This document shows positions 30,003 to 52,531 of a stretch of 64,000 bases of DNA, one piece after another. The notes under the pieces were generated by a model. It saw only the letters and a list, made by a program, of their open reading frames with translations. It did no database searches and was not told where the DNA came from. Made by a program: the position numbers and the translations under genes. Position 1 is the stretch's first letter, and every line of letters starts with the position of its first letter. Source of the stretch: Actinophytocola algeriensis (lineage in GTDB: Bacteria; Actinomycetota; Actinomycetes; Mycobacteriales; Pseudonocardiaceae). The stretch is taken from positions 791,326 through 855,325 of the forward strand of contig NZ_JACHJQ010000003.1 of the NCBI RefSeq assembly GCF_014203735.1, given 5' to 3'.

Positions 30003-30059
30003 GCGGAGGATGCGGGATTTGAACCCGCGAGGGCTTTAACACCCAACACGATTTCCAAT
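30003..30059. repeat. attL: 57-bp tRNA-Ser(GGA) 3' fragment
   Basis: Identical to 52475-52531; runs from the tRNA 3' end into the anticodon loop, then diverges (TCCGC versus TCGTG). It is the displaced 3' end of the original tRNA gene and is no longer functional. Confidence 0.93.
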
Positions 30060-30275
30060 TCCGCTTCGACTCGTCCAGAGGGGTTCAGTCACGTCGTTTC
30101 GGCAGGTCAACGCGAGCGTGGCATCCGTTTGGAACCCTGCCGGATCGAACGGAACTGAGACCCGAACTGAGACCCAAAAGAAGCTGAACCATCAGCAGAG
30201 GTCACCGACGAACCTCGTCCGCCGGTGACGATGGCGTTGCGGTTTGTGGCTGCTCGACGGTACCGCCCTACATGC
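30060..30275. promoter_or_regulatory. left-end arm-site region
   Basis: Two copies of AACTGAGACCC at 30153-30163 and 30165-30175, 12 nt apart, match a 12-nt-spaced pair near the right att core (52383, 52395) and are candidate integrase/Xis arm sites. GTCACCG (30201) with CGGTGAC (30223) may be the hsdR terminator. No gene. Confidence 0.5.
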
Positions 30276-33200
30276 TCACTCGTCCGTTCCCTGGCCGATC
30301 GCGGCCTCGTAGAAGGCGTCCGCGAGCGCCATGATGACGGCGCTGACAGCGGGGCCGTCGCTGAAGAAGTAGTCGGCCATGGTGTTGTGGGCTTCCTGGT
30401 TCTCGACGACTGCTTCAGTGACCGCGGTTTGAAAGTCCTGTGATTCCATGAACTGCTTCTTCGAGTTCACCTTGGTCTGGTTGACTAGGTCCGGGTAGGC
30501 GAGCAGTCGCTGCACCAGGCCCTGCACGAACTCCCGGACCTGCGACGCTGTGAACGATTCGGCGCCGAAGAGATCGTTCATCTTGTCGATGACGACTTGG
30601 AGCGCGACGTACTTCGGTTCCTTTCGCGCCCCGGTGCCCGCTGCGCCGATCCCCTTCAGTTCACCGTCGCCGGTCAGCGAGATGTCGACCGCGGTCCCCT
30701 TGGTGTGCTTGACGCCGACCAGGACCACGTCGGAGAGGTCGACTTCCGCGGCCCACGACGAGTCTGCGATGACCTTCTCCAGAAGTCGCAGGAAGATCGA
30801 CAGCATCTCCATGTACGGGTCGCCGTAGTCGATGATCTGGCTCATGAAGTCGTAGAGCCGGACATAGGTGGAGACGTCCTTGCGGAACAGGTCGAGGGTG
30901 GTGAGAGTGACCCTGTCGTCGGCCTCGATCGCAGCCGCGTAGCGGCGGGCGAACTCGTTCTTGGCCGGACTGATCGCGGCGGAGAGCGCGTTGTTGCCTT
31001 TACGGCCGACCCACAGTCCGGCAACCTCACGCACCTGCTCAGGCGTGTAGATCCCCGCCTGGGCGAGCTTGTTGGTGAGGTGGACGACGACGTACGGGTC
31101 GGTCTCGGTCTCGAGGGTGGCGTTGGTGAAGTAAGGCTCGAACGCGCTCCGGATGTCCTCGGGCTTGTTCACGAAATCGATGACGAACGTCTTGCGCTTC
31201 TGCTCGCCGCCCGCAGTGCGATGGGTGCGGTTGAGCCGGGAGAGCGTCTGCACGGCAGTGACCCCGGAGAGCTTCTTGTCGACGTACATTGCCGAGAGCA
31301 GCGGCTGGTCGAACCCTGTCTGAAACTTGTTGGCGACCAGCATGATCTTGTACGTCTCGCCCTTGAAGGCGGCGGCCAGGTCCGAGCCGGCACCGGGGTT
31401 CAGGTTGGCCTCGGTGAACTCGTCGTCCTTGCCCGGGTGCGGCCCCCAGTCCGAGGCCCACTCCTCGTCCTCAGCCATCGTCACTGAGCCGGAGAAGGCG
31501 ACCAGGGTGCGGTAGTTGTACGAGGCGTCCTTGGCGGCGCGTTTGGCGATGTAGGCGTCAATCGCCTTCTTGTACTTCACCGCGGCCTTACGAGAGTCGG
31601 TCACGACCATCGCCTTCGCCTTGCCTTCCAGCAGACGGGCGACGTTGACATGGAAGTGCTCGACGATGATCTGCACCTTCTGGCTGATGTTGGTCGGGTG
31701 CAGCTTCACCCACCGCATCAGCCCTTTCCTCGCTGCGGCCTCCTCCACCACCTCACTACCGTCGCTGCTTTCGGCCTGTCCGGCGATCTTTAGCGCGGTG
31801 TCGTAGGTCTGGTAGCCCTTGAGCACATCGAGGATGTAGCCCTCCTCGATGGCCTGCCGCATCGAGTAGAGGTGGAACTCGACAGGCTTGCCGTCAGGCC
31901 CCTTGCGGCCGAAGAGTTCCAACGTCTTGTTCTTCGGCGTCGCGGTGAATGCAAAGTAGGAGATGTTCTTTGACTCGGCCCGTTCGGTCATCTCCGAGGC
32001 CAGGATCGTCTCGGCGTCGATCTCACCGCCCTCCTCGATCTCCTTGACCTCCTCCGCGGTCAGCACGGCCTTGAGCTTCGAAGAGGTTTGTCCAGACTGT
32101 GAGGAGTGCGCCTCGTCGGCGATCACTGCGAACCGCTTACCCTTCAGACCCTTGTCGGCCCGGATCTCGTCGAGTGCGAACGGGAAGGTCTGCACCGTCA
32201 CCGCGATGATTAGTTCCCCGGCCTTCAACGCGGTCGCCAGCAGCCCGGACTTCGACTTGGCCCCCGACTTGCGCACGTCCTCCGGGCTGATCGTGGCCAC
32301 GATCTTTCCCGACCCGTCGATCTGACGGATCGCCTCCTGGAGCTGTCCGTCGAGCACAGTGCGGTCCACGACCACGATTACCGAGTCGAAAAGCTTCTTG
32401 TCGTTCACGTGCAGCCGCGCCAGCCGGTGCGCGGTCCAGGCGATGGTATTCGTCTTCCCCGAGCCCGCCGAGTGCTCGATCAGGTAGCGCTGACCCACGC
32501 CCTCCTCGCGCACCGCAGCCACGATGTTTGTCACGGCCTCCCACTGGTGGAAGCGTGGGAAGAGCATGCTCGTATGCCGCACCGACGTGCCGGTGGCGAC
32601 GTTCCATTCCTCCTTGGTCTCCACGATCATCAGCCGGCCGATGATGTTGAGCCAGGCATGTCTCTCCCAGACTCGCTCCCACAAGTACGCCGTCGCCGAC
32701 CGCCCATCCTTACCCGGTGGGTTTCCCTCGCCACTGTCGTGGCCCATGTTGAACGGCAGGAAGTGCGTTGTATCGCCTTCGAGTCGAGTGGTCATGGCGG
32801 CCAGATCGTTGGAGACGGCAAAGTGCACCAAAGCCCGGTGCCCGAACGACAGCAGCGGCTCCGGCCGCCCGTTGGTCAGCGGGTGCCGGTTCTTTCGGTA
32901 CTGGTTGATCGCCTGGTCCAGCGACTGGGTGAAGTCGGTCTTCAGCTCCACGGTGGCGACCGGGAGCCCGTTGACGAAGAGGACCAGGTCGATGCTGCGC
33001 TGGTCAGCGGTGGAGAAGTGTACTTGCCGCATCACCCGCACTCGCATCGCCGCGTACTGCTCGTTGGTCGTCGCATTCAGGCTGGTTTCGGGACGGAACT
33101 GTGCCATCTTCAAGCGGCCACCACCGATGTACTGCACCCCGTTGCGCAGGATGTTCAACGTCCCGCCGCCATGTTCAAGAGGTTTGTCGAGCGCCGTGGT

Positions 33201-33416
33201 CAGCACGTCGAGGAACTTCGCCACCGACCCCGCGGCCTTTAACGCCTTCTCGTAGGCTGCCTGCTGGGTCTCCTCTAGCCAGGCGAACAGATCCTCTGGA
33301 ACGAGTGCTCGCTCCCGGTCGTATCCGGAGTCATCGGCTGAGTAGAGCCACCCATGGCCGGACAGGTACTCGCAAATTTCGGTCTCGAAGACACCCTCGT
33401 GGTGGTCCGCCGTCAC
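30276..33416 (-). CDS. hsdR: type I restriction endonuclease subunit R
   Basis: 1046 aa from the GTG at 33416, overlapping the hsdS stop (GTGA). N-terminal nuclease domain with VATVELKTDFTQSLDQAI, the PD-(D/E)xK-type ELKT. Helicase motor: Walker A SAGSGKT (~319), DEAH box VIADEAHSS (~437), FTATPKNKTLELFG (motif III), and QTLSRLNRTH (motif VI). Translocates DNA and cleaves remote from unmodified recognition sites. Last gene of hsdM-hsdS-hsdR. Full length, with no interruptions. Confidence 0.95.
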   Translation of the reverse strand: MTADHHEGVFETEICEYLSGHGWLYSADDSGYDRERALVPEDLFAWLEETQQAAYEKALKAAGSVAKFLDVLTTALDKPLEHGGGTLNILRNGVQYIGGGRLKMAQFRPETSLNATTNEQYAAMRVRVMRQVHFSTADQRSIDLVLFVNGLPVATVELKTDFTQSLDQAINQYRKNRHPLTNGRPEPLLSFGHRALVHFAVSNDLAAMTTRLEGDTTHFLPFNMGHDSGEGNPPGKDGRSATAYLWERVWERHAWLNIIGRLMIVETKEEWNVATGTSVRHTSMLFPRFHQWEAVTNIVAAVREEGVGQRYLIEHSAGSGKTNTIAWTAHRLARLHVNDKKLFDSVIVVVDRTVLDGQLQEAIRQIDGSGKIVATISPEDVRKSGAKSKSGLLATALKAGELIIAVTVQTFPFALDEIRADKGLKGKRFAVIADEAHSSQSGQTSSKLKAVLTAEEVKEIEEGGEIDAETILASEMTERAESKNISYFAFTATPKNKTLELFGRKGPDGKPVEFHLYSMRQAIEEGYILDVLKGYQTYDTALKIAGQAESSDGSEVVEEAAARKGLMRWVKLHPTNISQKVQIIVEHFHVNVARLLEGKAKAMVVTDSRKAAVKYKKAIDAYIAKRAAKDASYNYRTLVAFSGSVTMAEDEEWASDWGPHPGKDDEFTEANLNPGAGSDLAAAFKGETYKIMLVANKFQTGFDQPLLSAMYVDKKLSGVTAVQTLSRLNRTHRTAGGEQKRKTFVIDFVNKPEDIRSAFEPYFTNATLETETDPYVVVHLTNKLAQAGIYTPEQVREVAGLWVGRKGNNALSAAISPAKNEFARRYAAAIEADDRVTLTTLDLFRKDVSTYVRLYDFMSQIIDYGDPYMEMLSIFLRLLEKVIADSSWAAEVDLSDVVLVGVKHTKGTAVDISLTGDGELKGIGAAGTGARKEPKYVALQVVIDKMNDLFGAESFTASQVREFVQGLVQRLLAYPDLVNQTKVNSKKQFMESQDFQTAVTEAVVENQEAHNTMADYFFSDGPAVSAVIMALADAFYEAAIGQGTDE

Positions 33417-34675
33417 AACATCTCCCGTACGTCGATCTGCCCCGTCACCGCCGCCGTGATCAGCGCTGCCCGCCGCTCGCGTGATAGTTCAACGAACAGT
33501 TCCGACTCTGTGATTAGCGTGTCAATCTTCGAGGTCTGCTTAGCCAGATACGCAGCGATCCTTCGCTGCTCGTCGACGTCGTCGGGTGCAGAAACCCGGA
33601 GCCCCATCAGTGCTCCGGCGGTCAACTTGGGCTGCGCCGCTCCAGAAACGACGGTAGTGACATCGAGCGCCTCCAGTCGCTGGGCCCAGAAGTCGACGTC
33701 ACCATCGCTCAGGGGGCGAAGGACGTGGGCGTGGTTGTTCACCCAATAGCGCCCCTTGGCAGCAAAGGCTATCGGCGTGGAGCGCATCAAGAGATTGGCG
33801 CCGTCCTCAGAGACCAACACGAGCGGTTCATCGAACAAGTAGTCGTTGACCCGATCGATCACTCCGGATGCTCCGTAGTAATCGAAGTCACCGCGACGGT
33901 CGGCACGCTCCTCGCCGCTCAGTGGGATGCGTCGTCCGTCGAGACTCTCCAGCCAGTATCGGACGGCCTTGACCGTCCAATGGCGCGGTACCAGACCGAC
34001 CACAGGGTCACCACTGTCGCGGAGTTCGACATCCTCGTCCACCCCGAAGCAGACGGCGCGGGTCGCCAGCACACGACGGCGCTCGCGGAGCATCTCGATC
34101 AGGCGCTGCTGCTCCTCGATGAGCGTGTCGATGCGCGCGGTCTCGCGGTCGAGGTAATCGGCGATGGCCCGCTGCTCGTCCAGCGGGGGAACCAGCCACG
34201 GTGCATCGGCCAACTCCTCGCGGTTGACCTTTGGCATCTTGACGCGCGTCGAGATGATCGTCGCAAACGTGTGGAACGGCCGCGCCAAAAGGTAGTAGAG
34301 CGCGAATCGGGGCTCGACCCTGTCACTGAATGACATCGCGTACATATCCGCGCTGCATAGCGCTTGCGTCTCAGCGATCACCGCCTTATTCAGCGCGGGT
34401 CGAATTTTCGAATACACGATTTGGCCCTGCTTGACAAGATATTTACCGCTATCGGCGCCCTGCTCGTCTGCCGTTTCGACGCTGACGATCCGTCCTGTGT
34501 TGCTCTCGATGTGGTTAGGAGCGATCAGTGTCATCCCGCTCCAAGGCTCTTCGCGAGGATCGACCTGTCCGCCGTTGATCACCGCCTCATAGCGGAAACG
34601 ACTGAGGTCCCAATGTGCTGGCACCTCGTCCAGCCACGGGGAGTTTGCTGTCGTCATCTCGGCGTAGGACTGCAT
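33413..34675 (-). CDS. hsdS: type I restriction-modification specificity subunit
   Basis: 420 aa from the ATG at 34675, overlapping the hsdM stop by one base. Two target-recognition domains separated by the long conserved helix (LDRETARIDTLIEEQQRLIEMLRERR); the second copy of that helix ends the protein (AAYLAKQTSKIDTLITESELF). Both halves are intact, predicting a bipartite recognition sequence, which is not readable from sequence. Confidence 0.93.
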   Translation of the reverse strand: MQSYAEMTTANSPWLDEVPAHWDLSRFRYEAVINGGQVDPREEPWSGMTLIAPNHIESNTGRIVSVETADEQGADSGKYLVKQGQIVYSKIRPALNKAVIAETQALCSADMYAMSFSDRVEPRFALYYLLARPFHTFATIISTRVKMPKVNREELADAPWLVPPLDEQRAIADYLDRETARIDTLIEEQQRLIEMLRERRRVLATRAVCFGVDEDVELRDSGDPVVGLVPRHWTVKAVRYWLESLDGRRIPLSGEERADRRGDFDYYGASGVIDRVNDYLFDEPLVLVSEDGANLLMRSTPIAFAAKGRYWVNNHAHVLRPLSDGDVDFWAQRLEALDVTTVVSGAAQPKLTAGALMGLRVSAPDDVDEQRRIAAYLAKQTSKIDTLITESELFVELSRERRAALITAAVTGQIDVREML

Positions 34676-36420
34676 CAGTCCTCGACCTCCTGCAGGAGGT
34701 CGAGGATCTTGACGACCTGCTTCTCCAGGTCGGCATCGATCTCGGCGAGGGGACGCGGTGGGACGTACTTGTAGAACTGGCGGGTGAAGGGGATCTCGTA
34801 GCCCATCTTGACCTTGGCCCAGTCGATCCAGGCGTCGGGGACGTGCGGCTTCACCTCGGCGTCGAAATACGCCTGGATGACCTCGACCTTGCAGGCAGGG
34901 CCGGCGGTCGAGCCGCCGTAGGTGAACGGGACGTTCTCGGTGTCACGCTTCTTCGTATCCGGCTTGGGCTTGCCCTTGCGGTCGACCACAGGGCTGCCGG
35001 ATCCATCGAGCAGCGGACGCTCGATGGTGATGGCCCAGTAGCCGAACGCGTCGTTGCGCAGCACCTTGGAGTAGTCGGGGTCGGCATCGAGGAAGTCGGC
35101 ATACAACTTCACCACATTGGCCCGGTCCGCCTCGCTGAGCTCACGATTCTTCGACCCGAGACTCTTGCGCATCTTGGTCCAGAACGAGGTGCCGTCGATG
35201 AGCTGGACCAAGCCTTTGCGATCGGGGTGCTTGGTGTTGTCGAGGATCCAGATGTAGGTGGCAATGCCGGTGTTGAAGAACATGTTCGTCGGTAGCGCGA
35301 CGATGGCATCGACCAGGTCGTTCTCCAGCAGCCACTTGCGGATATTGGAGGGCCCAGACTCGGCGCCTCCATTGAAGAGCGGCGAGCCGTTCATCACGAT
35401 CCCGACGCGGCCGCCGCCGTCCTCCGGCGCCCGCATCTTGTGGACCAGGTGGAGCAGGAAGAGCATCTGCCCATCCGAAGTTGCCGGGAGGCCGGGAGCG
35501 AACCGGCCGTAAGGGCCCGCTTCGTCGCGCTCTTTCGTGACCGCCTTCGCGTATTGCTTCCAGTCGACGCCGTATGGCGGGTTGGACATGCAGAAGTCGA
35601 ACTGGCGGCCCTTGAACGCGTCATCGGTCAGGGTGTTGCCGAAGGCGATGTTGGTCGCGTCGTGGCCCTTGGCCAGCAGGTCGGACTTGCAGATCGCATA
35701 CGACTGGGGGTTGTACTCCTGGCCGTACAGGTTCAGCTTCGCGTCGGGGTTCTGCCCGAGCAGGTGCTCCTCGGCCAAGGCGAGCATGCCGCCAGTGCCG
35801 GCAGTGGGGTCGTACAGCGTGCGGACGATGCCGGCCTCGGTCAGGTCGACGTTCTTCTCGGCGAAGAGCAGATCGACTAGCAGCCGGATCGCGTCTCGCG
35901 GCGTGTAATGGTCACCGGAAGTCTCGTTCGCGGCCTCATTGAACTTGCGGATGATGTACTCAAACGCATCGCCCATATCGGCGTTGGAGACGGCGTCCGG
36001 ATGCAGGTTGACGGCCTTGAAAGACGTGATGACTTCGCGCAGGAGCGCTGCCTTCTCCAGGGCGAGGATCTCATTTCTGAAGTCGAAGTACTCGAACACG
36101 TCGACATCGGGCGAGAACCGGTCGATGTAGTCGGTCAGGTTGTCCGCCAGCCCGTCGGCGTCAGCCAGCAGGTTGGCGAAGGAGTAGTTCGAGGTGTTGT
36201 AGAACGGCCTGCCGGTCGCCTTCTTGATCTCGATCCTGAGCCGGTTCGGATTGTCGTACTTCGCCGCCAGATTGCGCACCGTCTCACGGTCGGGCTCAAG
36301 GATGCAGTCGAGGCGGCGCAGGATCGTGAGTGGGAGGATCACGTTGCCGTACTGGTTGGGGCGGTAGGGACCTCGAAGCTGGTCGGCGATCGACCAGATG
36401 AAACTACCGAGGGTGCTCAC
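34675..36420 (-). CDS. hsdM: type I restriction-modification N6-adenine methyltransferase
   Basis: 581 aa from the GTG at 36420, chosen for AAGGAG seven bases before it; the frame runs on to 36504 without one. N-terminal helical HsdM domain, SAM-binding DPTAGTGGML (~205), catalytic NPPYGVDW (~280), and a C-terminal helix that matches the conserved M-S contact. Methylates adenine in the target and pairs with HsdS. First gene of the operon; regulated region 36421-36847. Confidence 0.94.
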   Translation of the reverse strand: MSTLGSFIWSIADQLRGPYRPNQYGNVILPLTILRRLDCILEPDRETVRNLAAKYDNPNRLRIEIKKATGRPFYNTSNYSFANLLADADGLADNLTDYIDRFSPDVDVFEYFDFRNEILALEKAALLREVITSFKAVNLHPDAVSNADMGDAFEYIIRKFNEAANETSGDHYTPRDAIRLLVDLLFAEKNVDLTEAGIVRTLYDPTAGTGGMLALAEEHLLGQNPDAKLNLYGQEYNPQSYAICKSDLLAKGHDATNIAFGNTLTDDAFKGRQFDFCMSNPPYGVDWKQYAKAVTKERDEAGPYGRFAPGLPATSDGQMLFLLHLVHKMRAPEDGGGRVGIVMNGSPLFNGGAESGPSNIRKWLLENDLVDAIVALPTNMFFNTGIATYIWILDNTKHPDRKGLVQLIDGTSFWTKMRKSLGSKNRELSEADRANVVKLYADFLDADPDYSKVLRNDAFGYWAITIERPLLDGSGSPVVDRKGKPKPDTKKRDTENVPFTYGGSTAGPACKVEVIQAYFDAEVKPHVPDAWIDWAKVKMGYEIPFTRQFYKYVPPRPLAEIDADLEKQVVKILDLLQEVED

Positions 36421-36847
36421 AAGGCTCCTTAGGCTCGTTCGAGGATGAATGTTGGACGCCGGGCGCGAGTTCGCCCGTGCGCGCAGTTCCAATAGGCGGC
36501 GCACAGTCTGCAGCAGCCGGTGGCATTAGGGCCATCTGGAGCCCTCCGATGAAGATGGTTCAGCCTTGCTCTGTGATGCCTCCAGTGACATAGAGAGTGG
36601 AAGGCGACACCTGCGAACGTGTCACTCGGCTGTCACGACAGTCTTTGCAGGTCAGATGATCTGTCGTGACAGAGTGGCAGGTGTTACACGGGCGGCCTGT
36701 CTTCGTCGGCTCGCGCGCCGACTGTGAACTAGGGCCGTGGATGCACCCCACGCGGGGACCTGCGCAGGGAGTGAAGGAGTTGAGTCTGATTACGCGCCGA
36801 ACCGCAAGCCCCCGGGACCGGTTCCGGGGGCTTCTCGCGCCGCGCTG
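36421..36847. promoter_or_regulatory. upstream control region of the hsd operon
   Basis: 427 nt with no gene. Contains an inverted repeat (36630-36641 CTGTCACGACAG and 36661-36672 CTGTCGTGACAG, 19-nt spacer) whose flanks continue the symmetry (ACACCTGC and CACTC on both sides), spanning ~36607-36687, plus a terminator at 36806-36833. The repeat is a good candidate operator for hsd expression or an element-specific site. Confidence 0.6.
36806..36833 (-). terminator. terminator of the XRE-DUF397 operon
   Basis: AAGCCCCCGG pairs with CCGGGGGCTT around an 8-nt loop, 15 nt past the DUF397 stop at 36848. Confidence 0.8.
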
Positions 36848-37042
36848 CTACTTCGTCACGATCTCTAGGAGAGAGTCCAGCGCGGATGTCGGCAGGTTCA
36901 GCGCGGAGCCAGCCGCGTTCTTCGAGTCGCGTACGGCGGCCTGGTCGGAGCTGCGCCACAACTCCACGCAGTTCTCTCCCTGGTCACTCCTCGTGCTCTT
37001 TCGCCACTGTGCGTTGTCAGGCATTGGGGCGGGTGACTGCAT
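36848..37042 (-). CDS. DUF397 domain protein
   Basis: 64 aa. The DUF397 pattern is clear: AQWRKSTRSDQGENCVELW, AVRDSKN, and a C-terminal strand with LEIVTK. These small proteins are encoded next to XRE/DUF5753 regulators in actinobacteria, as here, with 11 nt between the genes. They are thought to modulate the partner regulator. Terminator follows. Confidence 0.9.
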   Translation of the reverse strand: MQSPAPMPDNAQWRKSTRSDQGENCVELWRSSDQAAVRDSKNAAGSALNLPTSALDSLLEIVTK

Positions 37043-37053
37043 CGGTGGTACTC

Positions 37054-37923
37054 CTACAGCTCTGCGATCCGACGGTTGATCAGCTCGATTGTCCCCTGAG
37101 GGCTGAGCGCGTCGGCTCGTAGCTTGTCGAAGACCAGGTCATATACCCGCTGGTGCTCGCGGCCGAGGTAGTCGGACGTGGTCAGTCCGGCCACGTAGAC
37201 GAGGCCCGGTCGGCCTTCCATCAGGTTGACGATGGAGAAGGACACGCCGTGTGACGCGTGCGCTCCCGCGCTGAACGGCATCACCTGGACGGACACGTTC
37301 TCTAGCTCGGCGAGGTCGCGGACCTGTTCGAGCTGCCCGCGCAGCGTCTCGGGGCCGCCGATGGAGCGGTGCAGCGCCTCCTCGCCGACGACGAGCCACA
37401 GCCGCGGAGCACCTGGCGCACGCAGGCGCTCGACTCGCTTCGCGCGGTCCTGTGCCATCGGCTCGACGTCGGCCGGCCGCACGGTGACCACGCGTTCAAG
37501 CTGGGCACGGGCGTAGTCGGCCGTCTGCACCGTGCCTGGGAACGCGTCCGCGTTCCACAGCTTCAGCTCGCGGGCCGCCGCGACGAGGTGCACGTACTTG
37601 GCTGCCCACTCGGCGACGCGACTCGGCGGGAGCTTGCGGCGGGCGAGGCTCGCGAGCCGTTGCAGCTCGCCGGCCTCCTTCGGGCCGATCTTGAACGCGC
37701 GGATCGCCGCCGCCAGATCCTTGTCGCTCGTCGGGACGTCGCCCTGCTCGATCTTGGACAGCTTGCCTGCGTACCAGCCGAGGGCCTTGGTCGCCTCGGT
37801 GCTGCTCAGCTCGATCGACTCGCGGGCGGCGCGCAGCCGGGCACCCAGCAAGATCCGCTGAACGAACGGACCCAGGTCCGCCTCTGCGCCGGGGTTGTTG
37901 TCGCCCTCGTCCGCTGTGGTCAT
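37054..37923 (-). CDS. XRE family regulator with DUF5753 domain
   Basis: 289 aa from the ATG at 37923; an in-frame ATG at 37932 is the alternative. N-terminal HTH (LGARLRAARESIELSSTEATKALGWYAGKLSKIEQG), then the DUF5753 sensor (ALHRSIGGPETLRGQLEQV, VMPFSAGAHASHGVSFSI, VYVAGLTTSDYLG). Forms an operon with the DUF397 gene. Its divergent promoter region holds a 15-bp palindrome. Such pairs control development or defence-type genes; the target is unknown. Confidence 0.9.
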   Translation of the reverse strand: MTTADEGDNNPGAEADLGPFVQRILLGARLRAARESIELSSTEATKALGWYAGKLSKIEQGDVPTSDKDLAAAIRAFKIGPKEAGELQRLASLARRKLPPSRVAEWAAKYVHLVAAARELKLWNADAFPGTVQTADYARAQLERVVTVRPADVEPMAQDRAKRVERLRAPGAPRLWLVVGEEALHRSIGGPETLRGQLEQVRDLAELENVSVQVMPFSAGAHASHGVSFSIVNLMEGRPGLVYVAGLTTSDYLGREHQRVYDLVFDKLRADALSPQGTIELINRRIAEL

Positions 37924-38004
37924 GGCGGGCATTCTCCCGTGGTGCTCACTCACCGTGTACCGCAAGTACTCCGTTCGGTGCAACTTTAGTTCTTGCCAAC
38001 TCCA

Positions 38005-38711: not shown

Positions 38712-38783
38712 ATGAGCCGGAGACGCTGGCTTTGGCGGACACTAGACATCGGCTGGTTCAGCGAAAGGGATCGCAGACATTGA
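38712..38783 (+). CDS. 23-aa leader ORF coupled to the phosphotransferase gene
   Basis: ATG to TGA encoding an Arg/Trp-rich peptide (MSRRRWLWRTLDIGW, then FSERDRRH). Its stop overlaps the TTG start of the next gene (TTGA), so ribosomes finishing it could initiate there. No recognised family. Confidence 0.4.
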   Translation: MSRRRWLWRTLDIGWFSERDRRH

Positions 38784-41738: not shown

Positions 41739-41793
41739 TAGTCCCCCTTCGCCGGCATCTCCACGCCGTCCCCTAGTCAACACCCGATCTTAG

Positions 41794-41887: not shown

Positions 41888-42190
41888 ATGTTTTCGCTGA
41901 AGATCACCGACAGGCGAGTCACCGAAGCGCTGATCCCGCAGCTGGACGCCGACATTGCCGCCGTCGCGGAAGAGGAAGCCGCAGCGGCCGAGGTTGCCGA
42001 GATCGACGCCCTCGTCGAGGAAGCCGAGCGCGAGTGGGCTGCCGCCGAGCAGCGCGAGACCGTGCGGCTCACGCGAGTGTTCACCGACCAGACGCGGGCA
42101 CGTCGGGCACGTCGCCGGGAGGACCGGACGGTGCTGCGGACGTTGCCGACCCGCTTCGGCATCTCCGACGTGACCGGAGAGGTGGCGTGA
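41888..42190 (+). CDS. coiled-coil protein heading the transfer operon
   Basis: 100 aa, Glu/Ala/Arg-rich, mostly one long helix (VAEEEAAAAEVAEIDALVEE, AEREWAAAEQRETVRL) followed by a basic tail RARRARRRED. GAGG before the ATG. No family recognised. Stop overlaps the next start (ATGA). Confidence 0.7.
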   Translation: MFSLKITDRRVTEALIPQLDADIAAVAEEEAAAAEVAEIDALVEEAEREWAAAEQRETVRLTRVFTDQTRARRARRREDRTVLRTLPTRFGISDVTGEVA

Positions 42191-45641: not shown

Positions 45642-45669
45642 CCGTCGCGAGTGATCCGAGCGGATCGGT

Positions 45670-45836
45670 GGGGTAGCGGCTGTCGCGCTACCGGTAGCGG
45701 CACCGCTACCCCACCCCGCTACCACTCACAACACATCTGATCAGGCGCTATTTCCGCAGGTAGCGGATAGCGGCCCTGGTCGACGCTGCCCAAAACAGGC
45801 TCTCTGGAGACACCTATGTCCACGCTTGCCGCTACC
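45670..45836. repeat. GGTAGCGG/CCGCTACC iteron-like array (candidate origin)
   Basis: GGTAGCGG at 45672, 45693, 45759; CCGCTACC at 45703, 45716, 45829; a degenerate copy at 45767. The outer pair GGGGTAGCGG (45670) and CCGCTACCCC (45703) can form a 10-bp stem. Sits between traB and the replication genes. Likely replication origin or operator. Confidence 0.6.
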
Positions 45837-46076
45837 GGCATTCCCGACGCTGCTACCCAGGATCACAGCATTGCTGGTCTGGTCTCGGTCGTGGTGGTCG
45901 CCCTGGCGATCGTCACCGCTGGCTACTTCGTCCGCTGCTGGCTCTTCCCCTTCACCTCCTGCCGCCACTCCGACGCCCGGCGTCTCTGGCGCTGCCGACG
46001 TTGCGACGGCACCGGCCGTCGTCTGCGTGTCGGCCGCCGACTGATCAACCACCTGCGCGCCATGCGCCGCCACTGA
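45816..46076 (+). CDS. small membrane protein with Cys-rich basic tail
   Basis: 86 aa from the ATG at 45816 (GGAGA upstream). One membrane helix (GLVSVVVVALAIVTAGYFV), then a tail with CWLF, CRHS and WRCRRCDGTGRR, a single zinc-knuckle-like cluster rich in Arg. Common beside AICE prim-pol genes. Function unknown. Confidence 0.7.
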   Translation: MSTLAATGIPDAATQDHSIAGLVSVVVVALAIVTAGYFVRCWLFPFTSCRHSDARRLWRCRRCDGTGRRLRVGRRLINHLRAMRRH

Positions 46077-46099
46077 CCGTCTACTTCGGAGGGATCACC

Positions 46100-47035
46100 A
46101 TGGCTACTGACTCAGACATGTTGACGGCCGCGCTCACGGCCGCGGCCCGCGGTTGGCACGTCTTCCCGCTCCGTCCAGGCAGCAAGGTCCCGGCCCTGCA
46201 CCGCAAGGCCCGCTGCCCGCGCACCGACGCTTGCCGCGACGGTCACCGGGGATGGGAGCAGCGCGCCACTACAGACTCCGACCGCATCCGGTCCGCGTGG
46301 TCGGCCGGCCGCTTCAACGTCGGCACCGCAACCGGTCCGTCCGGTCTCGTGGTGCTCGATCTCGACACCCCCAAGCCCGAAGACGACCCCTGCCCGGCCG
46401 ACTGGGACATGCCAGGTGTCCGGGATGGACAGGACGTGCTCGCGGTGCTTGCCGACCGTGCTGGTGAGCCGGTACCGGTCGACACGTTCACCGTGGCCAC
46501 CCCGTCCGGTGGCCTGCACCTGTACTACCGCGCGCCGGACGGCGTCGAGCTGCGGAACACGGCGGGCACGCTCGGGTGGAAAGTGGACACCCGCGCGCAC
46601 GGCGGCTATGTCGTCGCGCCAGAGTCGGCAGTGGACGGCCGCCGCTACCGCGTGCTGCTCGATCTGCCCGTCGCGCCGTTGCCTGCCTGGCTCGTGATGC
46701 TGCTCCGGCCCGCGCCACGTTCGGTGGTGCCGGACCATCCGGTGCGGGTGGCTGCTGGCCGCCGGTCTCGGTACGTGGATGCGGCCGTGAGCCTGGAGTG
46801 CGCGCAGGTCGAGCAGGCCCGCGAAGGGCAGCGCAATGCGCGCCTGTTCGTCGCGGCCAAGTCGCTCGGTCAGCTCGTGGCCGGTGGCGCGCTGCGCGAG
46901 GACCAGGCGGTCAACGAGCTGTTCGCCGCTGCGTGGACACACATCTCGGTCGGTGCGTACAGCCAGGGCCAGGCCATGGCCACCATCCGCTCCGGTCTGG
47001 ACGCAGGTGCACAGCAGCCCCGGCAGGTGGCCTGA
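46100..47035 (+). CDS. bifunctional DNA primase/polymerase (prim-pol) domain protein
   Basis: 311 aa from the ATG at 46100 with GGAGGG upstream. Prim-pol hallmarks: GWHVFPLRPGSKVPAL at the start, GLVVLDLDTPK (metal Asp), SGGLHLYYRAP with the conserved His, and GGYVVAPES. Length indicates the primase/polymerase domain without a helicase tail. The RecA-fold ATPase two genes downstream may supply the helicase. Starts the AICE replication operon. Confidence 0.85.
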   Translation: MATDSDMLTAALTAAARGWHVFPLRPGSKVPALHRKARCPRTDACRDGHRGWEQRATTDSDRIRSAWSAGRFNVGTATGPSGLVVLDLDTPKPEDDPCPADWDMPGVRDGQDVLAVLADRAGEPVPVDTFTVATPSGGLHLYYRAPDGVELRNTAGTLGWKVDTRAHGGYVVAPESAVDGRRYRVLLDLPVAPLPAWLVMLLRPAPRSVVPDHPVRVAAGRRSRYVDAAVSLECAQVEQAREGQRNARLFVAAKSLGQLVAGGALREDQAVNELFAAAWTHISVGAYSQGQAMATIRSGLDAGAQQPRQVA

Positions 47036-47301
47036 TGAGCGCTGACACGCGTCTGGAGCGGACAGACGGCCTGCACGGTGGCGGAACGGTCGCCTACCGC
47101 GTGCTGGTCGCGGGTCGGTGGGTCGGCTGGGTCGGTGACGGCCGACCGTGGCGCGGCTGGCGCTACGGCGGCCGACGTTGGTGGGCCTGCTGGCGAGAGG
47201 ACGGCGACAGCGCCGCGCGCTGGAGCACAGATCTCGACTACCCCAGCCGCCGGACCGCGCTTACCGCTCTTCTTAGCCACGCCATTCGGGAGGCCGCGTG
47301 A
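47035..47301 (+). CDS. small Trp/Arg-rich hypothetical protein
   Basis: 88 aa from the ATG at 47035, overlapping the prim-pol stop; its own stop overlaps the next start (ATGA both sides), so translation is coupled through the operon. Trp-rich core (GRWVGWVGDGRPWRGWRYGG). No family recognised. Confidence 0.7.
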   Translation: MSADTRLERTDGLHGGGTVAYRVLVAGRWVGWVGDGRPWRGWRYGGRRWWACWREDGDSAARWSTDLDYPSRRTALTALLSHAIREAA

Positions 47302-48365
47302 TGAACACGGCACCAGCTCGTGCCCTGCATGCGGTCCCGGCCTCGCCGGAACGGCGGACGCGGTGGACCGACGACCAGCTGTTGAACCAGGAGTTCCCGC
47401 CGCCGCGGTGGGCCGTACCCGGGCTACTGTGCGAAGGACTCAACCTGCTGGCCGGTGCGCCGAAGCTGGGCAAGTCCTGGCTCTCGCTCGGCATCGGCGC
47501 GTCCATCGCGAACGGTGATCCGGCGTTGGGCGGGATCGAGGTCGAGCGCGGCCCGGTCCTGTACTGCGCGTTGGAGGACACCGGCCGCCGGTTGCAGTCC
47601 CGCCGCCGGCAGATGCTCGCTGCTGGCGGTCGGGCCGCGCCGTTGCTGACGCTGGAGACGGCCTGCCCGACCATGCCGAACGGCGGTGACGCGGTCATCG
47701 TCGAGTGGATCGAGGAGAACCCGAACGCCCGGCTGATCATCGTCGACACCTTCGAGAAGATGCGCGGTCGCAACCCGCAGGGCGTGTCCGCGTACGCGGC
47801 CGACTACGCCGCGGCTGGCCGGTTCAAGACCATCGCGGACAACTACGGCGTGCCGATCCTGCTGATCCACCACGTCCGCAAGCAGGCCGCCGAGGACTGG
47901 CAGGACCTCGTGTCCGGCACCAACGGCCTGACCGGTGCGGTGGACGCCACGCTCGTACTCGAGCGTTCGCGCGGGCAGGCGGACGGCGTCCTGCACGTCA
48001 CCGGCCGCGACGTGGTGGAGAGCGACTACGCCATGACGTTCGACGGGACGTTCTGGAGCAAGCTCGACGGCCCCGCGTCGGACTACGAGATGCGCGACAC
48101 GCGCGCCCTGCTGATGCGGTTGGTGCGCGAGTGCCCCGGCAGCAAGCCCGCCGACCTGGCGAAGGCCCTCGACAAGCCACCGGCCACGGTGCGCAAGACC
48201 CTCTCGCGGATGGCCGAACAGGGCCAACTCCGCGTCGCGCCTGGTGGGGCCTACTACCCACCCGAACCGGGCGACCAGTCGAGTGACCAGGCCCGTGACA
48301 CGTCACCGCTGTCACACCTGTCACTCAGTCACTCCACCCCTTCTGAACAGGAGGAATCGCTGTGA
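47301..48365 (+). CDS. RecA-fold AAA ATPase (RepA/RSF1010-like helicase type)
   Basis: 354 aa from the ATG at 47301. Walker A GAPKLGKSWLS, strand GPVLYCALEDTGRRL, Walker B RLIIVDTFEKMRG, and the sensor LLIHHVRKQAAEDW match the AAA_25 family of replicative helicase-like ATPases in phages and AICEs; the C-terminal ~90 residues hold a winged helix (KPADLAKALDKPPATVRKTL). Probably unwinds the element for replication. Ends overlapping the xis frame. Confidence 0.87.
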   Translation: MNTAPARALHAVPASPERRTRWTDDQLLNQEFPPPRWAVPGLLCEGLNLLAGAPKLGKSWLSLGIGASIANGDPALGGIEVERGPVLYCALEDTGRRLQSRRRQMLAAGGRAAPLLTLETACPTMPNGGDAVIVEWIEENPNARLIIVDTFEKMRGRNPQGVSAYAADYAAAGRFKTIADNYGVPILLIHHVRKQAAEDWQDLVSGTNGLTGAVDATLVLERSRGQADGVLHVTGRDVVESDYAMTFDGTFWSKLDGPASDYEMRDTRALLMRLVRECPGSKPADLAKALDKPPATVRKTLSRMAEQGQLRVAPGGAYYPPEPGDQSSDQARDTSPLSHLSLSHSTPSEQEESL

Positions 48366-48637
48366 CAACGCCAGTGACACCCACGAGGACCGGTCACGTC
48401 GACACGAGGGGAGAGGTGCCCACCATGGTTACCCCGACAGGCGACAGCGAGCCGCCGCGGCTGCTGATCACCGTCGAGGCAGCGGCTGAGCTGCTCTCCA
48501 TCAGCCGCACCCGCATGTACGCGCTCATCAAGGCCGGAGAGGTCATGTCGGTGCGCGTCGGCCGACTCCGCCGCATCCCGGTAGGCGCACTGGACGCGTT
48601 CATGACGCGCTTGCTCACCGACCAGAACGCCGCCTGA
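48362..48637 (+). CDS. xis: excisionase (Xis)
   Basis: 91 aa from the GTG at 48362, overlapping the previous stop by 4 nt; an internal ATG at 48425 with GAGAGG upstream is an alternative that removes a disordered 21 residues. MerR-like winged helix of the excisionase family: LITVEAAAELLSISRTRMYA, LIKAGEVMSVRVGRLRRIP. Directs excision with the integrase gene that follows. Confidence 0.9.
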   Translation: MTTPVTPTRTGHVDTRGEVPTMVTPTGDSEPPRLLITVEAAAELLSISRTRMYALIKAGEVMSVRVGRLRRIPVGALDAFMTRLLTDQNAA

Positions 48638-48694
48638 CCAGCCGGTTTACCGCAAACGCAAACCGCTCGGGCGGAGCCATGCCCAAAAGCAGCG

Positions 48695-50050
48695 ATGAGA
48701 GGAACCACAGAAGTGGCACGCAGGAAGCGCGCAGAGGGAACCCGTAACCCCAACGGGGCATCGTCCATCTACCTCGGCAGTGACGGGAAGTGGCACGGCC
48801 GCGTGACGATGGGCGTCCGCGACGACGGCCGGCCGGACCGTCGTCACGTCAAGCGCAACACCGAAGCGGACGCGATCCGCGCTGTCCGCGAGCTGGAGAA
48901 GCAGCGCGACGCGGGCAAGGTGCGGAAACCGGGTCGCGGGTGGACGGTGGAGAAGTGGCTGCGGCACTGGGTCGAGAACATCGCGGCCCCGACCGTGCGC
49001 CGGACCACGATGGTGGGCTACCGCTCGTCGGTCTACAACCACCTGATCCCGGGGGTCGGTGCGCACCGGCTGGACAAGCTGGAGCCGGAACACCTCGAAA
49101 GGCTGTACGCGAAGCTGCAAGTCCCGAAGGACAAGGGAGGGAAGGGACTCGCGGCAGGGACGGTGCACCTGGCGCATCGGACCGTGCGGGTTGCGCTCGG
49201 TGAGGCGGTCAAGCGTCGGCACGTCGTCGAGAACGTGGCGAAGGTCGCGAAGCCGCCGAAGGTCGAAGAAGACGAGATCGTGCCGTTCACCGTGGAGGAA
49301 GCGCGCCGAATTCTCGCCACGGCCGCGGACGTGCGCAACGGTGCACGGTTCGTGGTCGCGCTGACACTCGGCCTACGGCGCGGCGAGGCTCTCGGGCTGA
49401 AGTGGTCGGACCTGGACATCAAGTGGCAGCACGGCTGCGAGAAGGACAGCGAGTGCCGCGGAGCGGCCGCGCAACTCTGCCCAGACCGTCAACTGAAGAC
49501 CGCCACGATGACCATCCGACGCGCAGTCCAGCAGTTCGTCTGGCAGCACGGCTGCGCAGACGCCAAACCGTGCGGCCGAAGGTACGGCGCGCACTGCCCG
49601 CAACGGCACAGCGGGGGAGTGGTCACCACGGACGTGAAGTCCCGCGCCGGTCGCCGCACGGTCGGCATCCCCGCGCCGTTGGTACACGAGATCGAGCGGC
49701 ACCGGGAACAGCAAGCCGTCGAACGCGCGCACGCTGCGAACCTGTGGCGCGAGGAAGGATGGGTGTTCACCAGCCGACTCGGCGGCCCGGTCCACCCGAC
49801 CGTGGACCACGAAGCGTGGAAAGCCCTACTGCGCGCGGCGAAAGTACGGGACGCGCGATTGCACGACGCCCGGCACACGGCCGCGACCATGCTCCTGGTG
49901 CTCAAGGTGCCGTTGCCAGCCGTTATGGAGATCATGGGTTGGTCGGATGCCTCAATCGCGAAGCGTTACATGCACGTGCCGAGTGAGTTCTTGAGTGCTA
50001 TCGCGAACCAAGTGGGTGGGTTGATGTGGGCCAACTTTTACGACGACTAG
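48695..50050 (+). CDS. int: tyrosine-type site-specific integrase
   Basis: 451 aa from the ATG at 48695 (a GTG at 48713 is possible). N-terminal arm-binding region (GASSIYLGSDGKWHGRV), SAM-like core-binding domain (VEKWLRHWVENIA), and catalytic domain with Arg in LGLRRGEALGL (~226), HxxR in HDARHTAA (~392) and nucleophile Tyr in KRYMHV (~425). A Cys-rich insertion has two similar WQHGC...CP units and may bind zinc. Catalyses recombination at tRNA-Ser(GGA); attR is 2.4 kb to the right, past three cargo genes. Confidence 0.95.
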   Translation: MRGTTEVARRKRAEGTRNPNGASSIYLGSDGKWHGRVTMGVRDDGRPDRRHVKRNTEADAIRAVRELEKQRDAGKVRKPGRGWTVEKWLRHWVENIAAPTVRRTTMVGYRSSVYNHLIPGVGAHRLDKLEPEHLERLYAKLQVPKDKGGKGLAAGTVHLAHRTVRVALGEAVKRRHVVENVAKVAKPPKVEEDEIVPFTVEEARRILATAADVRNGARFVVALTLGLRRGEALGLKWSDLDIKWQHGCEKDSECRGAAAQLCPDRQLKTATMTIRRAVQQFVWQHGCADAKPCGRRYGAHCPQRHSGGVVTTDVKSRAGRRTVGIPAPLVHEIERHREQQAVERAHAANLWREEGWVFTSRLGGPVHPTVDHEAWKALLRAAKVRDARLHDARHTAATMLLVLKVPLPAVMEIMGWSDASIAKRYMHVPSEFLSAIANQVGGLMWANFYDD

Positions 50051-50219: not shown

Positions 50220-50786
50220 CTATGCGCGCGAGGACTTCATCTGCCTGTCTGCTGGCAGCGCTCTCAGTGCGGCCATCACAAATTCCGTTTTTGCCATAGT
50301 GTAGGCTTTGCGATCGTATTTATGCTGTTCCGCGAGTCGAACCTTGAGGTCTTCATATCGCCTCGCAAGAACATGGTCATGGCGAAGTGCGTCTCTGAAA
50401 CTAATCATCTCTACCCACTTCGACCCTCCGGCCTGGACAATGTGCAGATGAGATTGGCGATGGCGGCCGGATGTGTCCGTTTTGATGAAGAACCGGCGCC
50501 AAGGCTGTGCGTCGAACTCCGGGTCCACATACGTCCAACCCTCTGCCGTAAGTCTTCCTGAGGCGACGAGGGAAATGTTCGACAAGTCGCGCACCGATGC
50601 GATTAAGTCAATAATTGGCTTCGCGATGAGTCCGACCACCGCAGTGGAGCCGATATGCTGGACGCCATCAACAAGCCAAGGCTCCAATAATTCTTCAACC
50701 CGGTCGTTTTCCGTCCTTGCGCGGTCAATCCAGCGAGGATCGTACGGCTGCAGTACGACCTTTTCGGATGTCCACGGTGGCATCAT
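50220..50786 (-). CDS. GrpB-family (UPF0157) nucleotidyltransferase-fold protein
   Basis: 188 aa (ATG at 50786 or 50783). VVLQPYDPRWIDRARTENDR at the start and HIGSTAVVGLIAKPIIDLIASV mark the GrpB family, which has the GSx(10)DxD-type nucleotidyltransferase core; HLHIVQ and FRDALRHDHVLARRYEDLK follow. Activity of these proteins is not settled. Lower GC and minus strand like the two genes to its right, suggesting cargo gained together. Confidence 0.87.
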   Translation of the reverse strand: MMPPWTSEKVVLQPYDPRWIDRARTENDRVEELLEPWLVDGVQHIGSTAVVGLIAKPIIDLIASVRDLSNISLVASGRLTAEGWTYVDPEFDAQPWRRFFIKTDTSGRHRQSHLHIVQAGGSKWVEMISFRDALRHDHVLARRYEDLKVRLAEQHKYDRKAYTMAKTEFVMAALRALPADRQMKSSRA

Positions 50787-50949
50787 GTCAACCTCGCTTA
50801 ACAGATTGGATAATTACAGTGCGGCGGTAGGCGGTTGACGCGGATGTCCGGTTAGGGAGCTATGGGTTGCGATGTTTAGGAACTGCTTCAGAGCGTGGTT
50901 ATTCAACCAACCTTGACGCGTCCAAAGCTCGCCCAAATGACGAGTTGAG

Positions 50950-51411
50950 CTACCTTCCCAACCTTGGCGACGCGCTCTGGTGCGCAAGGCAGCCGCGAAC
51001 CTGTTCCATGTGAACAAGATCTTTTGGCCGGTTGAGTACCCATTTATACGTCAGTACACACTCAAGTCGGACGAATCGGAATCCGCTGAGCCACTCGGAC
51101 TGATCAATGAGAAAGTCCGTGTCCCAGATCCTTGGTAGCCACTCGCTGAATATCTCGATCTTCCCGCCCCAGAACTGGATGATCGGAATGCTGCGTAGCG
51201 GCCCGAATGCGGACGTGCCCAACTGGCGAGCCTTGTTCCATGCAGCGCCTCGGGCAATGATATCCAAATCGCTGATTTGTGAGATCATGCCTCGCGCGTA
51301 CAGTGGTGCACTGCCAAAAATGGCAAAGTTCTCACGGTCGAGGTCAAGTTCGGCGAGTCGACTGAACAACGGATGTGAACTCGGATCAAACAAGATTCTG
51401 CTCGGCGGCAT
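50950..51411 (-). CDS. nucleotidyltransferase-like protein
   Basis: 153 aa from the ATG at 51411; a TTG at 51432 would extend it by seven residues. FAIFGSAPLYARGMISQISD then LDIIARG has the spacing of the GSx(n)DxD motif of MNT/DNA-polymerase-beta-type nucleotidyltransferases, followed by GGKIEIFSEWLPRIW with a third acidic candidate. Could act as a nucleotide-transferring toxin or modifying enzyme; nothing in the sequence decides. 31 nt from the Crp-type gene on the same strand. Confidence 0.65.
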   Translation of the reverse strand: MPPSRILFDPSSHPLFSRLAELDLDRENFAIFGSAPLYARGMISQISDLDIIARGAAWNKARQLGTSAFGPLRSIPIIQFWGGKIEIFSEWLPRIWDTDFLIDQSEWLSGFRFVRLECVLTYKWVLNRPKDLVHMEQVRGCLAHQSASPRLGR

Positions 51412-51442
51412 GATTCCGGCTCCCTGTGGCAAACCTTATACC

Positions 51443-52117
51443 TTATGAGGTCGGAGTGTCGCCTCTGGCGATAGACTCCAGTTTTGCTAGATCAAGTACC
51501 GTGATGGTTTGACGCCCTACGGACAAGATTCCTTTTTCGCGTAGCGGCCGAACGATCTTCTTGACTGAGTCAGTCGATATGCCAGCGAGTTCGGCGAGGT
51601 CGACCTGGCTGAACCCGAGGGTCGTCTTCCCGGCGGAGGTAACCCCCAGTCCTTTCGTGCACAGATCGACAAGCGCTTTTGCAAGCTTTTGTGCTCCAGC
51701 TAGCTGGGATTCAACCGTCAAATGCGTGGACTCCGCCAAGCGTTCTTGCACCGTGTATATCAGGGCCAACGTCGCGCGGAAATTGGTCTCTAGGAAGCTG
51801 AACCACTTGCTGGCGGAAAGGTGGAGCGCTTCAACATCTTCAAGTGCAAAGACACTGGCCGACCGGGGCTTGTTTCGGATTGCCGCCATCTCGCCAATCA
51901 AGTCACCTGGACCACGTATGGCAACCACTCGACGGGGAGTGCCGGCAACCACCTTGACGTGCCCCTTGCGGATTAGAAGCACAAACGTGGTCGTCTCCCC
52001 TTCGCCCATGAGGATGTTGCCTTTTGGGAAGCGGATGACATCTCCCATCGCTTCCAAGGTGGCGATCTCGCCCTCGGTAAGGCGAACGTGCAGCTGGTAC
52101 TGAGTCCCGTCGTCCAC
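51443..52117 (-). CDS. Crp/Fnr family transcriptional regulator
   Basis: 224 aa from the GTG at 52117. Cyclic-nucleotide-binding beta-roll (FPKGNILMGEGETTTFVLLI, GDLIGEMAAIRNKPRSASV), long dimer helix (~110-140) and HTH_Crp (LGFSQVDLAELAGISTDSVK, KIVRPLREKGIL). No Fnr cysteines. May sense a nucleotide made by its neighbours; that link is speculative. First gene of the right-end cargo unit. Confidence 0.9.
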   Translation of the reverse strand: MDDGTQYQLHVRLTEGEIATLEAMGDVIRFPKGNILMGEGETTTFVLLIRKGHVKVVAGTPRRVVAIRGPGDLIGEMAAIRNKPRSASVFALEDVEALHLSASKWFSFLETNFRATLALIYTVQERLAESTHLTVESQLAGAQKLAKALVDLCTKGLGVTSAGKTTLGFSQVDLAELAGISTDSVKKIVRPLREKGILSVGRQTITVLDLAKLESIARGDTPTS

Positions 52118-52474
52118 GATCCTGAGTGTAATCTGGCACCTGGCAAGGCGCCATACCCCATCTGGGGGGGAGGCGGAGAGCGCAACGCTTGGGCGAAGGT
52201 CGATCGACAGGCTGCTTCAGGGTGGTTGTGCCCGCCTACCGCGGGGTCGAACCAGGGGCTGAGGTTCCACGCACTGGAGGTGCCTGGCTGCCTCGCCGGC
52301 GGCAAGGTGTTACGCCTGTGGAGAGAACTGCAGTCCCGCTGTTTGGCGCGGACCGAGCAGGGTGAGTCGACCTCAAGGGCGACTGAGACCCAAACCGAGA
52401 CCCAGCACCCCTGTGAGACGACGAACGCCCGGTGTCCATGATCACGGACACCGGGCGTTCTGCCTGTTCAGAGC
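52118..52474. promoter_or_regulatory. right-end arm-site region
   Basis: No gene. CTGAGACCC (52383-52391) and CCGAGACCC (52395-52403) repeat with the same 12-nt spacing and orientation as at the left end; a partial TGTGAGAC follows at 52412. A 15-bp perfect hairpin (52423-52437 with 52446-52460) ends the tRNA transcript before the att core. Confidence 0.55.
52423..52460 (-). terminator. tRNA-Ser(GGA) terminator carried by the element
   Basis: GAACGCCCGGTGTCC pairs with GGACACCGGGCGTTC around 8 nt. Supplies termination for the tRNA restored by integration. Confidence 0.75.
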
Positions 52475-52531
52475 GCGGAGGATGCGGGATTTGAACCCGC
52501 GAGGGCTTTAACACCCAACACGATTTCCAAT
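52475..52531. repeat. attR: 57-bp core within tRNA-Ser(GGA)
   Basis: Identical to 30003-30059. Here it continues into chromosomal DNA that completes the tRNA 5' half, so this is the functional attachment site junction. Confidence 0.93.

Follow-up and report, generated by a model that had tools for sequence, protein, structure and literature searches.

Does the interval of about 22.5 kb that lies between two copies of a tRNA-Ser(GGA) 3' half in the genome of Actinophytocola algeriensis amount to a complete actinomycete integrative and conjugative element (AICE), and what do the genes that it carries beside its mobility functions suggest? A reading made from the letters alone, referred to below as the sequence-only reading, had proposed such an element within a stretch of 64,000 nucleotides of this genome (assembly GCF_014203735.1; 9.73 Mb, 23 contigs). 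This stretch, positions 791326-855325 of contig 3 (NZ_JACHJQ010000003.1), is called here the window, and its coordinates are used throughout. We are highly confident that the interval is an AICE integrated in tRNA-Ser(GGA), of a known kind and with defence-type cargo.

Boundaries of the element

The ends of the element are marked by an exact 57-bp direct repeat, maximal at both ends, one copy forming the near attachment core inside the intact tRNA-Ser(GGA) gene (core, 52475-52531; gene, 52475-52562; both on the minus strand) and the other the far attachment core (30003-30059, minus strand), which is a copy of the 3' half of the same gene. From core to core, the element measures 22,472 bp. Both copies lie on a single contig and, with the settings used, no other direct repeat of at least 25 bp was reported across 28-54 kb. 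A search of the whole genome with the tRNA returned four matches, namely the intact gene, the 57-bp copy and two weaker ones (73% over 88 bp and 93% over 27 bp), and contained no third copy of the core. The sequence-only reading was thus correct in its delimitation of the element and in placing the intact gene at the right end. Its further statement, that the element supplied the 3' half of the tRNA, fits the geometry, identical copies giving no clue to the direction.

Core copies and integrases in the genus and the family

The source genome (G000) was compared with five congeners (G001-G005). One full core copy, and no integrase (Int) of more than 50% identity, was found in G001, G002 and G005; two core copies together with a near Int were found in G000, G003 and G004, the Int being 83% and 85% identical in the latter two, respectively. 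Core copy number therefore tracks the near Int in six of the six genomes, window included, and this agreement supports the proposal of a complete AICE. The empty site of G001 shows the order tRNA-Ser(CGA), a small gene (likeness judged by eye), a hairpin and tRNA-Ser(GGA), with 324 bp between the two tRNAs and with blastn matches to the window flanks on both sides. The same succession of tRNA-Ser(CGA), small gene and tRNA-Ser(GGA) is present in G005, where the tRNAs are 887 bp apart, and G002 has a single tRNA, inverted and with different neighbouring genes. Relatives lacking the element had been expected to carry tRNA-Ser(GGA) followed directly by the tract at 29261-30002; sites with a single core and no near Int, and the gene order, were indeed recovered, but the tract was not, since blastn at the five congener loci found neither it nor the 591-aa gene that accompanies it in the 2,903 bp by which tRNA-Ser(CGA) is separated from the far core in the window. 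This tract of 742 bp is poor in T (5.7%) and has merely short matches elsewhere in the genome (58-93 bp); further T-poor stretches occur in the window at 9401-10100, 12201-12800 and other places. G005 also harbors, in the neighbouring tRNA-Ser(CGA), a sister element (L066 with L067; Int 49% identical) that has a 65-bp far copy about 19 kb off, an NsdA-kinase gene pair inside (see below) and an int-tRNA gap of 2.5 kb.

The congeners also bear on whether the element still moves. An immobile relic, that is, an integrated AICE that has ceased to move and persists on account of its restriction genes and other cargo, would fit the observation that element and backbone diverge from G004 alike (76.9-78.4% versus 77.7% DNA identity), as after long vertical residence, and the related int of G003 was counted with one in-frame TAA. 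In the window, however, int, xis and the genes for the primase/polymerase (Prim-Pol), the AAA ATPase and the motor are open reading frames (ORFs) with domains, the core copies are identical, and both arms as well as a candidate transfer site are present, so that we regard a relic as unlikely. The identities do not separate vertical descent from independent gain in G000, G003 and G004. Nor could import of a tRNA 3' half be read in G003 and G004, because the copies are identical within each genome; the variable-arm letters of their core are the same as in a Kibdelosporangium element.

At E <= 1e-100, Int was detected in 40 of 249 genomes of the family, the source genome and three congeners included. 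For the tRNA-copy test we took the nine genomes with the best Int outside the genus and 17 genomes listed without such an Int. Extra core copies were present in six of the nine, each set enclosing an Int, and a single core copy in 16 of the 17 controls. Of 63 loci surveyed (duplicates dropped by eye), 7 yielded no tRNA and 56 had one no further than 4 kb away. Wherever the Int of these 56 is at least 64% identical (14 loci, L134 being a partial match), it faces tRNA-Ser (11 GGA and 3 CGA); for less similar Ints the facing tRNA is Pro, Arg, Thr, Phe, Val, Ala or Ser. In a separate comparison, unfiltered by strand, each nearest downstream tRNA listed was on the strand opposite int.

These counts speak to the explanation that a duplicated tRNA gene or an error of assembly, unrelated to the enclosed genes, gave rise to the 57-bp repeat. 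Partial tRNA copies without a near Int do exist, for instance 0.8 kb apart in G007, but one contig spans both copies in the window, copy number agrees with Int throughout the genus, and 13 of 15 elements have a pair of arm sites (described below) whose distance from the far copy, on its inner side, hardly varies, all of which leaves this explanation with a negligible probability. Diverged partial tRNA-Ser cores, possibly scars of lost elements, were seen at 2429-2485 of L197 (G007), about 0.8 kb away from another copy, and at 1122-1174 of L189 (contig C20 of genome G216), where that distance is about 1 kb.

Mobility genes

The sequence-only reading had listed int/xis, Prim-Pol, a RecA-fold ATPase, a TraB-like motor, a GntR repressor and a type I restriction-modification (RM) system, and all of these are present by domain or profile matches; what the list omitted is an NsdA-like tetratricopeptide repeat (TPR) regulator with a kinase of the aminoglycoside phosphotransferase (APH) superfamily, and a helix-turn-helix (HTH)/DUF5753-DUF397 pair. 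The int gene (48695-50050, plus strand) encodes a tyrosine recombinase (PF00589) matched in Pfam, NCBIfam and PHROGs, and xis (48362-48637, plus strand) an excisionase-type HTH protein with the excise domain TIGR01764. On the same strand lie the genes for an AAA_25 RecA-fold ATPase (47298-48365; Pfam), the presumed replication partner, and for the bifunctional Prim-Pol (46001-47035; PF09250, 1.3e-47), whose real start is probably downstream of the start of the listed ORF. The FtsK/TraB-like DNA translocase, or motor, is encoded at 43386-45641 (plus strand), its start having been picked by eye inside the ORF 43236-45641. It matches phrog_1358 (FtsK/SpoIIIE-like; 1.9e-15), and a profile made from 11 aligned motor proteins matches solved FtsK (3.3e-12). 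The best matches of its predicted structure (mean pLDDT 74.8) are FtsK motor structures (E 8.6e-12; TM 0.35 by query and 0.62 by target), and phmmer with the motor alone gave no match among solved structures. Upstream of it, a membrane protein (42190-43389, plus strand; start codon not fixed) has no match in Pfam or NCBIfam and is possibly of Spd type, as judged by eye; a partial relative is held by L096 at the same place. The direct repeats found within prim-pol and within the Spd-like gene were judged to be of coding origin and set aside. The GntR-family regulator (PF00392, 3.9e-13) is encoded at 41385-41783 on the minus strand.

Set beside the features of AICEs as used in the accessible text of PMC3218068, tRNA targeting included, the element has (i) a recombinase and an excisionase (PF00589, TIGR01764), (ii) integration at the 3' end of a tRNA gene with a direct repeat, as seen from the repeat and from the empty and occupied congener sites, (iii) a replication module, Prim-Pol followed by the AAA_25 ATPase, and (iv) an FtsK/SpoIIIE-type Tra protein, recognised by profile and fold and not by PF01580, the family named in that text. 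Relaxase, VirB4 and VirD4 families were absent from the Pfam results for the scanned element proteins, a set covering the small ORFs in part. Int, Xis and Prim-Pol also match phage protein families, as they might in a phage-spread satellite or prophage-like island that uses the tRNA but not conjugation. Such an origin appears very improbable, given that capsid, terminase and portal families were not found among the scanned proteins (PHROGs, n = 10; Pfam), that an FtsK/TraB-type motor is present and that the record of the relative pCM32 describes a plasmid.

Cis-acting motifs

Paired copies of the word TGAG[A/C]C lie inside both ends of the element. The left arm has two ACTGAGAC sites 12 bp apart (30154-30173, plus strand), 94 bp inside the core, and the right arm has ACTGAGACC and ACCGAGACC, also 12 bp apart (52382-52402, plus strand), the second being a variant. 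A strict pair at 12 bp is present in the tRNA-side arm of 46 of the 56 loci, and on the far side a pair lies within 250 bp of the core in the 13 of 15 elements mentioned above, L114 and L194 being the exceptions. In total, 53 pairs were counted in 983,399 bases of 54 loci, versus 0.29 expected if the single motifs were independent, and the G001 and G002 loci have zero. We propose that these pairs are Int arm-type sites. A further pair, on the minus strand within hsdM at about 36281, lacks a core in its vicinity and was attributed to chance.

On the element side, downstream of the tRNA, lies a terminator-like hairpin (52423-52460, minus strand; ends set by eye) with a free energy (dG) of -37.3 and z-scores of -6.9 and -6.0 in two runs; the inner side of the far core has no hairpin (z 1.0). 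The 60 nt beside the tRNA on this side have z below -3 relative to shuffled sequences in 44 of the 56 loci (60 shuffles each, L098 at -3.0 counting as a miss), the background being 13 of 300 random 60-mers (40 shuffles each). Hairpins also accompany the tRNA at the empty sites (G001, z -8.2; G002, z -5.0; weaker in G005, z -2.1), and one is retained next to the far core, on its chromosomal side (window, z -2.9; G003, z -4.0; G004, z -7.4). Because the hairpin is carried on the tRNA-side arm and empty sites have native ones, the incoming arm would replace the terminator of the tRNA, and integration would restore a terminated tRNA gene through the element-side hairpin. The literature searched held nothing on the topic of tRNA, terminator and attachment site.

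In the 230 bp after the motor gene (45640-45870), six CCGCTACC octamers in both orientations form a candidate transfer site (clt); none of 300 random windows was equally repetitive. According to the accessible text of PMC4170104, Streptomyces TraB recognises 8-bp repeats at clt. L096 carries the octamer seven times at the corresponding place (1/300), L139 five times (1/300) and L123 six times (10/300), and the cluster is absent from the other 8 of the 12 loci tested, L112 having three copies (35/300). A different octamer is repeated five times in pCM32 (2/300) and six times in L129 (14/300), and no strong repeat follows the motor in L100, L127, L130, L137 and L140 (40 to 298 of 300). It is possible that the octamers are replication iterons rather than clt. 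For the arm word, the family-wide hairpin pattern and the octamer tract we met no published precedent, no in-depth literature search having been made for each.

Comparison with described elements

The circular plasmid record pCM32 (14,611 bp; Saccharopolyspora endophytica YIM 61095, NZ_KM260754.1) resembles the window element in its Int (70% identical), in having one core of the same tRNA-Ser half (89% identical to that of the window), in arm-site pairs on either side with a hairpin on the int side (by eye), and in the order GntR ... motor, Prim-Pol, next gene, xis, int, and tblastn matched the window Int, Xis and Prim-Pol in it. It differs in its size of 14.6 kb and in the absence of a type I RM system from its annotation. 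Contig C22 of G216 aligns throughout with pCM32, 14,196 bp at 99.99% identity and the other 473 bp at 100%, and it starts and finishes with a 56-bp core. Two other contigs of G216, C13 and C20, start with 127 bp of either C22 end and continue with other sequence, taken as chromosome, C13 carrying the complete tRNA. Based on the plasmid record and these junctions, this relative has been recorded both as a circle and as an insert. No paper on pCM32 was found by title in the literature searched.

SLP1 of Streptomyces coelicolor, an AICE of the Prim-Pol type, likewise has a Prim-Pol gene and then a further replication gene (SCO4617-SCO4618, in the accessible text of PMC3218068), a likeness that rests on the description and not on sequence comparison or on the target tRNA. 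As far as the accessible text of PMC3364876 goes, arm repeats flank the core in pSAM2 and pACPL as they do in the window, and the 21-nt arm repeats of pACPL are similar to the pSAM2 sites bound by Int. We read the printed pACPL repeat as a 9-base word at a 12-base period, which is the period of the window, whereas pACPL differs in its arm word, its tRNA-Pro target and its repSA replication. Within the genus, an element of Actinophytocola xanthii (L096; far end from L065) shares the tRNA and the octamer cluster, and its best segments are 84% (Int), 86% (AAA), 84% (FtsK) and 67% (Prim-Pol) identical to the window. The stretches compared contain no match to the RM, NsdA-APH and Crp-NTase-GrpB genes of the window, and the int-tRNA interval of this element holds different ORFs. 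The literature searched contained nothing on integrative and conjugative elements in Actinophytocola, nor, by title or abstract, on AICE, Pseudonocardiaceae and tRNA-Ser.

Assignment and proposed mode of action

The assignment to AICEs draws on boundaries, empty and occupied sites, gene identities and conserved cis motifs that were all observed. Several results weigh against it. PF01580 (FtsK_SpoIIIE) misses the window motor by itself, for which there is no family at E <= 1, and at this threshold it matches 7 of the 11 aligned motor proteins. Tblastn found no relative of the window FtsK, AAA and GntR proteins in pCM32, although a GntR-family member and a P-loop ATPase are encoded there at matching places; the genes concerned would accordingly have been exchanged or be very diverged. 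The copy counts in the congeners are limited to 40 candidates scored per genome, an extra 41-bp core match at 88% was obtained in G002, and the core copies of G003 and G004 are on separate contigs, their elements not being visible whole. In the family, three of the nine near-Int genomes have a single core match (G248, whose Int faces tRNA-Ser(CGA) at L100, and G039 and G084, whose Int is near a contig end), and in the control G007 a second copy, partial and diverged, occurs with no near Int. Lastly, the second right-arm copy of the window deviates, reading ACCGAGAC, and the window is one of 10 loci out of 56 without a strict pair, the others being L192 (13 bp), L099, L073, L131, L116, L120, L090, L092 and L141.

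Excision, replication and transfer by this copy, together with the roles of its cis motifs and cargo, are what we infer from the AICE assignment. On each arm, Int would bind the TGAG[A/C]C pair in addition to the 57-bp core; acting together with Xis, it would release the element as a circle carrying a single core, and this circle would be replicated by Prim-Pol and the AAA ATPase. The FtsK-type motor would assemble on the CCGCTACC repeats and move double-stranded DNA into a recipient, where Int would insert the circle into tRNA-Ser, the element core and hairpin rebuilding a full, terminated tRNA gene. Control would be exerted by GntR, and probably also by the NsdA- and DUF5753-type regulators.

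Cargo and the interval between int and the tRNA

Next to the far core, three minus-strand genes with family matches encode the type I restriction subunit (hsdR, 30276-33416), the specificity subunit (hsdS, 33413-34675) and the methyltransferase subunit (hsdM, 34675-36504), and they are followed on the same strand by genes for a DUF397 protein (36848-37042; Pfam) and an HTH_31/DUF5753 regulator (37054-37983; family match). The APH-superfamily kinase gene (38732-39673, plus strand) overlaps its convergent neighbour, which encodes the NsdA-family TPR regulator (39633-41039, minus strand; NF053720, 419.8 bits, cut-off 75). Since the kinase reaches 20 bits against the APH(3') model, for which the cut-off is 205, we do not call it a resistance gene. 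This overlapping convergent pair is retained in the related elements L067, L098/L196 and L193 at 75-78% (NsdA) and 66-69% (kinase) identity. The accessible text of PMC9513070 lists both RM systems and aminoglycoside phosphotransferase genes among the cargo of AICEs.

Three more genes, all on the minus strand, lie between int and the tRNA, encoding a GrpB-family protein (50220-50786; PF04229, 2.3e-42), a small nucleotidyltransferase (NTase)-like protein of 160 aa (50950-51432; aligned motif residues) and, as upstream partner of the latter, a Crp-like regulator predicted to bind cyclic nucleoside monophosphates (cNMP) (51443-52117; family match). Like the type I RM system, they are probably cargo, to judge from their families. 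The sequence-only reading had noticed these three genes and considered their position unusual, but it is less so than stated, a minority pattern rather than an exception: the Int-tRNA distance is below 500 bp in 43 of the 56 loci, above 500 bp in 13, of which 9 exceed 1 kb, and above 500 bp in 7 of the 14 closest loci. A pocket beside int is thus recurrent for this Int family. In the window, the arm sites and the hairpin adjoin the tRNA, and the extra genes are placed between them and int. The G+C content of the pocket is 56.1%, versus 68.7% for the core from tra to int, and in seven of eight other pockets measured it is likewise under that of the respective locus (equal in L192). Among ten ORFs chosen from seven of these eight pockets, we found AbiV and PIN (both L130), an HTH protein with an IrrE-type peptidase (L127) and a pentapeptide-repeat protein (L192), and no family at E <= 0.05 for the remaining six. 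The AbiV/PIN pocket is at L130:11341-14362, in a metagenome-assembled genome of the Propionibacteriales.

The 160-aa protein has no match in Pfam or NCBIfam, and a plasmid search with it gave none. Its relatives were found in 12 of 298 genomes of the order, its own included, and a Crp relative lies within about 1.5 kb at 10 of the 13 other NTase loci (not at L176, L185 and L186). A search of the class with alignment A2, in which 9 candidates were scored per genome, matched 10 of 394 genomes, its own included, and a Crp relative was present at one of the nine other NTase loci (L205). The controls were 112 loci of similar length, drawn from earlier tRNA or Int matches and hence not random; three matched, each being the window's own gene, which leaves 0 of 109. 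Strong as it is within the order, the Crp-NTase pairing is therefore not a general one: at five of the nine class loci a membrane protein is encoded directly upstream instead. Loci with a Crp-like regulator near the NTase gene are 50950-52117 of the window, L174, L175, L177-L184 and L205; the membrane protein was recognised by eye at L199, L200, L201, L202 and L204, and a NUDIX-like gene at L206 and L207. GrpB was found at no NTase locus of the order besides that of the window. Ten aligned members share G40-S41, D55-x-D57, W98, K130 and R135-x-K137-D138, residues that we take to fit a minimal nucleotidyltransferase. As a single-sequence model of the protein was unusable (mean pLDDT 35.8), the NTase reading depends on these aligned residues.

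Tentatively, small defence-type modules may enter preferentially at the pocket between int and the attachment site in this Int family, and the Crp-NTase genes of the window may be an undescribed two-gene system, in which a cNMP-binding sensor of the Crp type would control a minimal nucleotidyltransferase (GS-DxD ... K ... RxKD) without a Pfam or NCBIfam family. The AbiV and PIN genes and the HTH-IrrE peptidase of other pockets point in the same direction, yet on balance we hold this combined reading to be doubtful. No published precedent for the Crp-NTase pairing was met in the literature searched, in which no in-depth search was made.

For AICE biology, the comparison provides three testable handles on an element that is ordinary in kind: the arm word, which an integrase family shares at the two ends of its elements, the candidate transfer-site octamer, and the hairpin carried beside the core, which could explain how the function of the tRNA survives integration. 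The pocket on the int side, for its part, is a place to look for uncharacterised modules such as the Crp-NTase pair.

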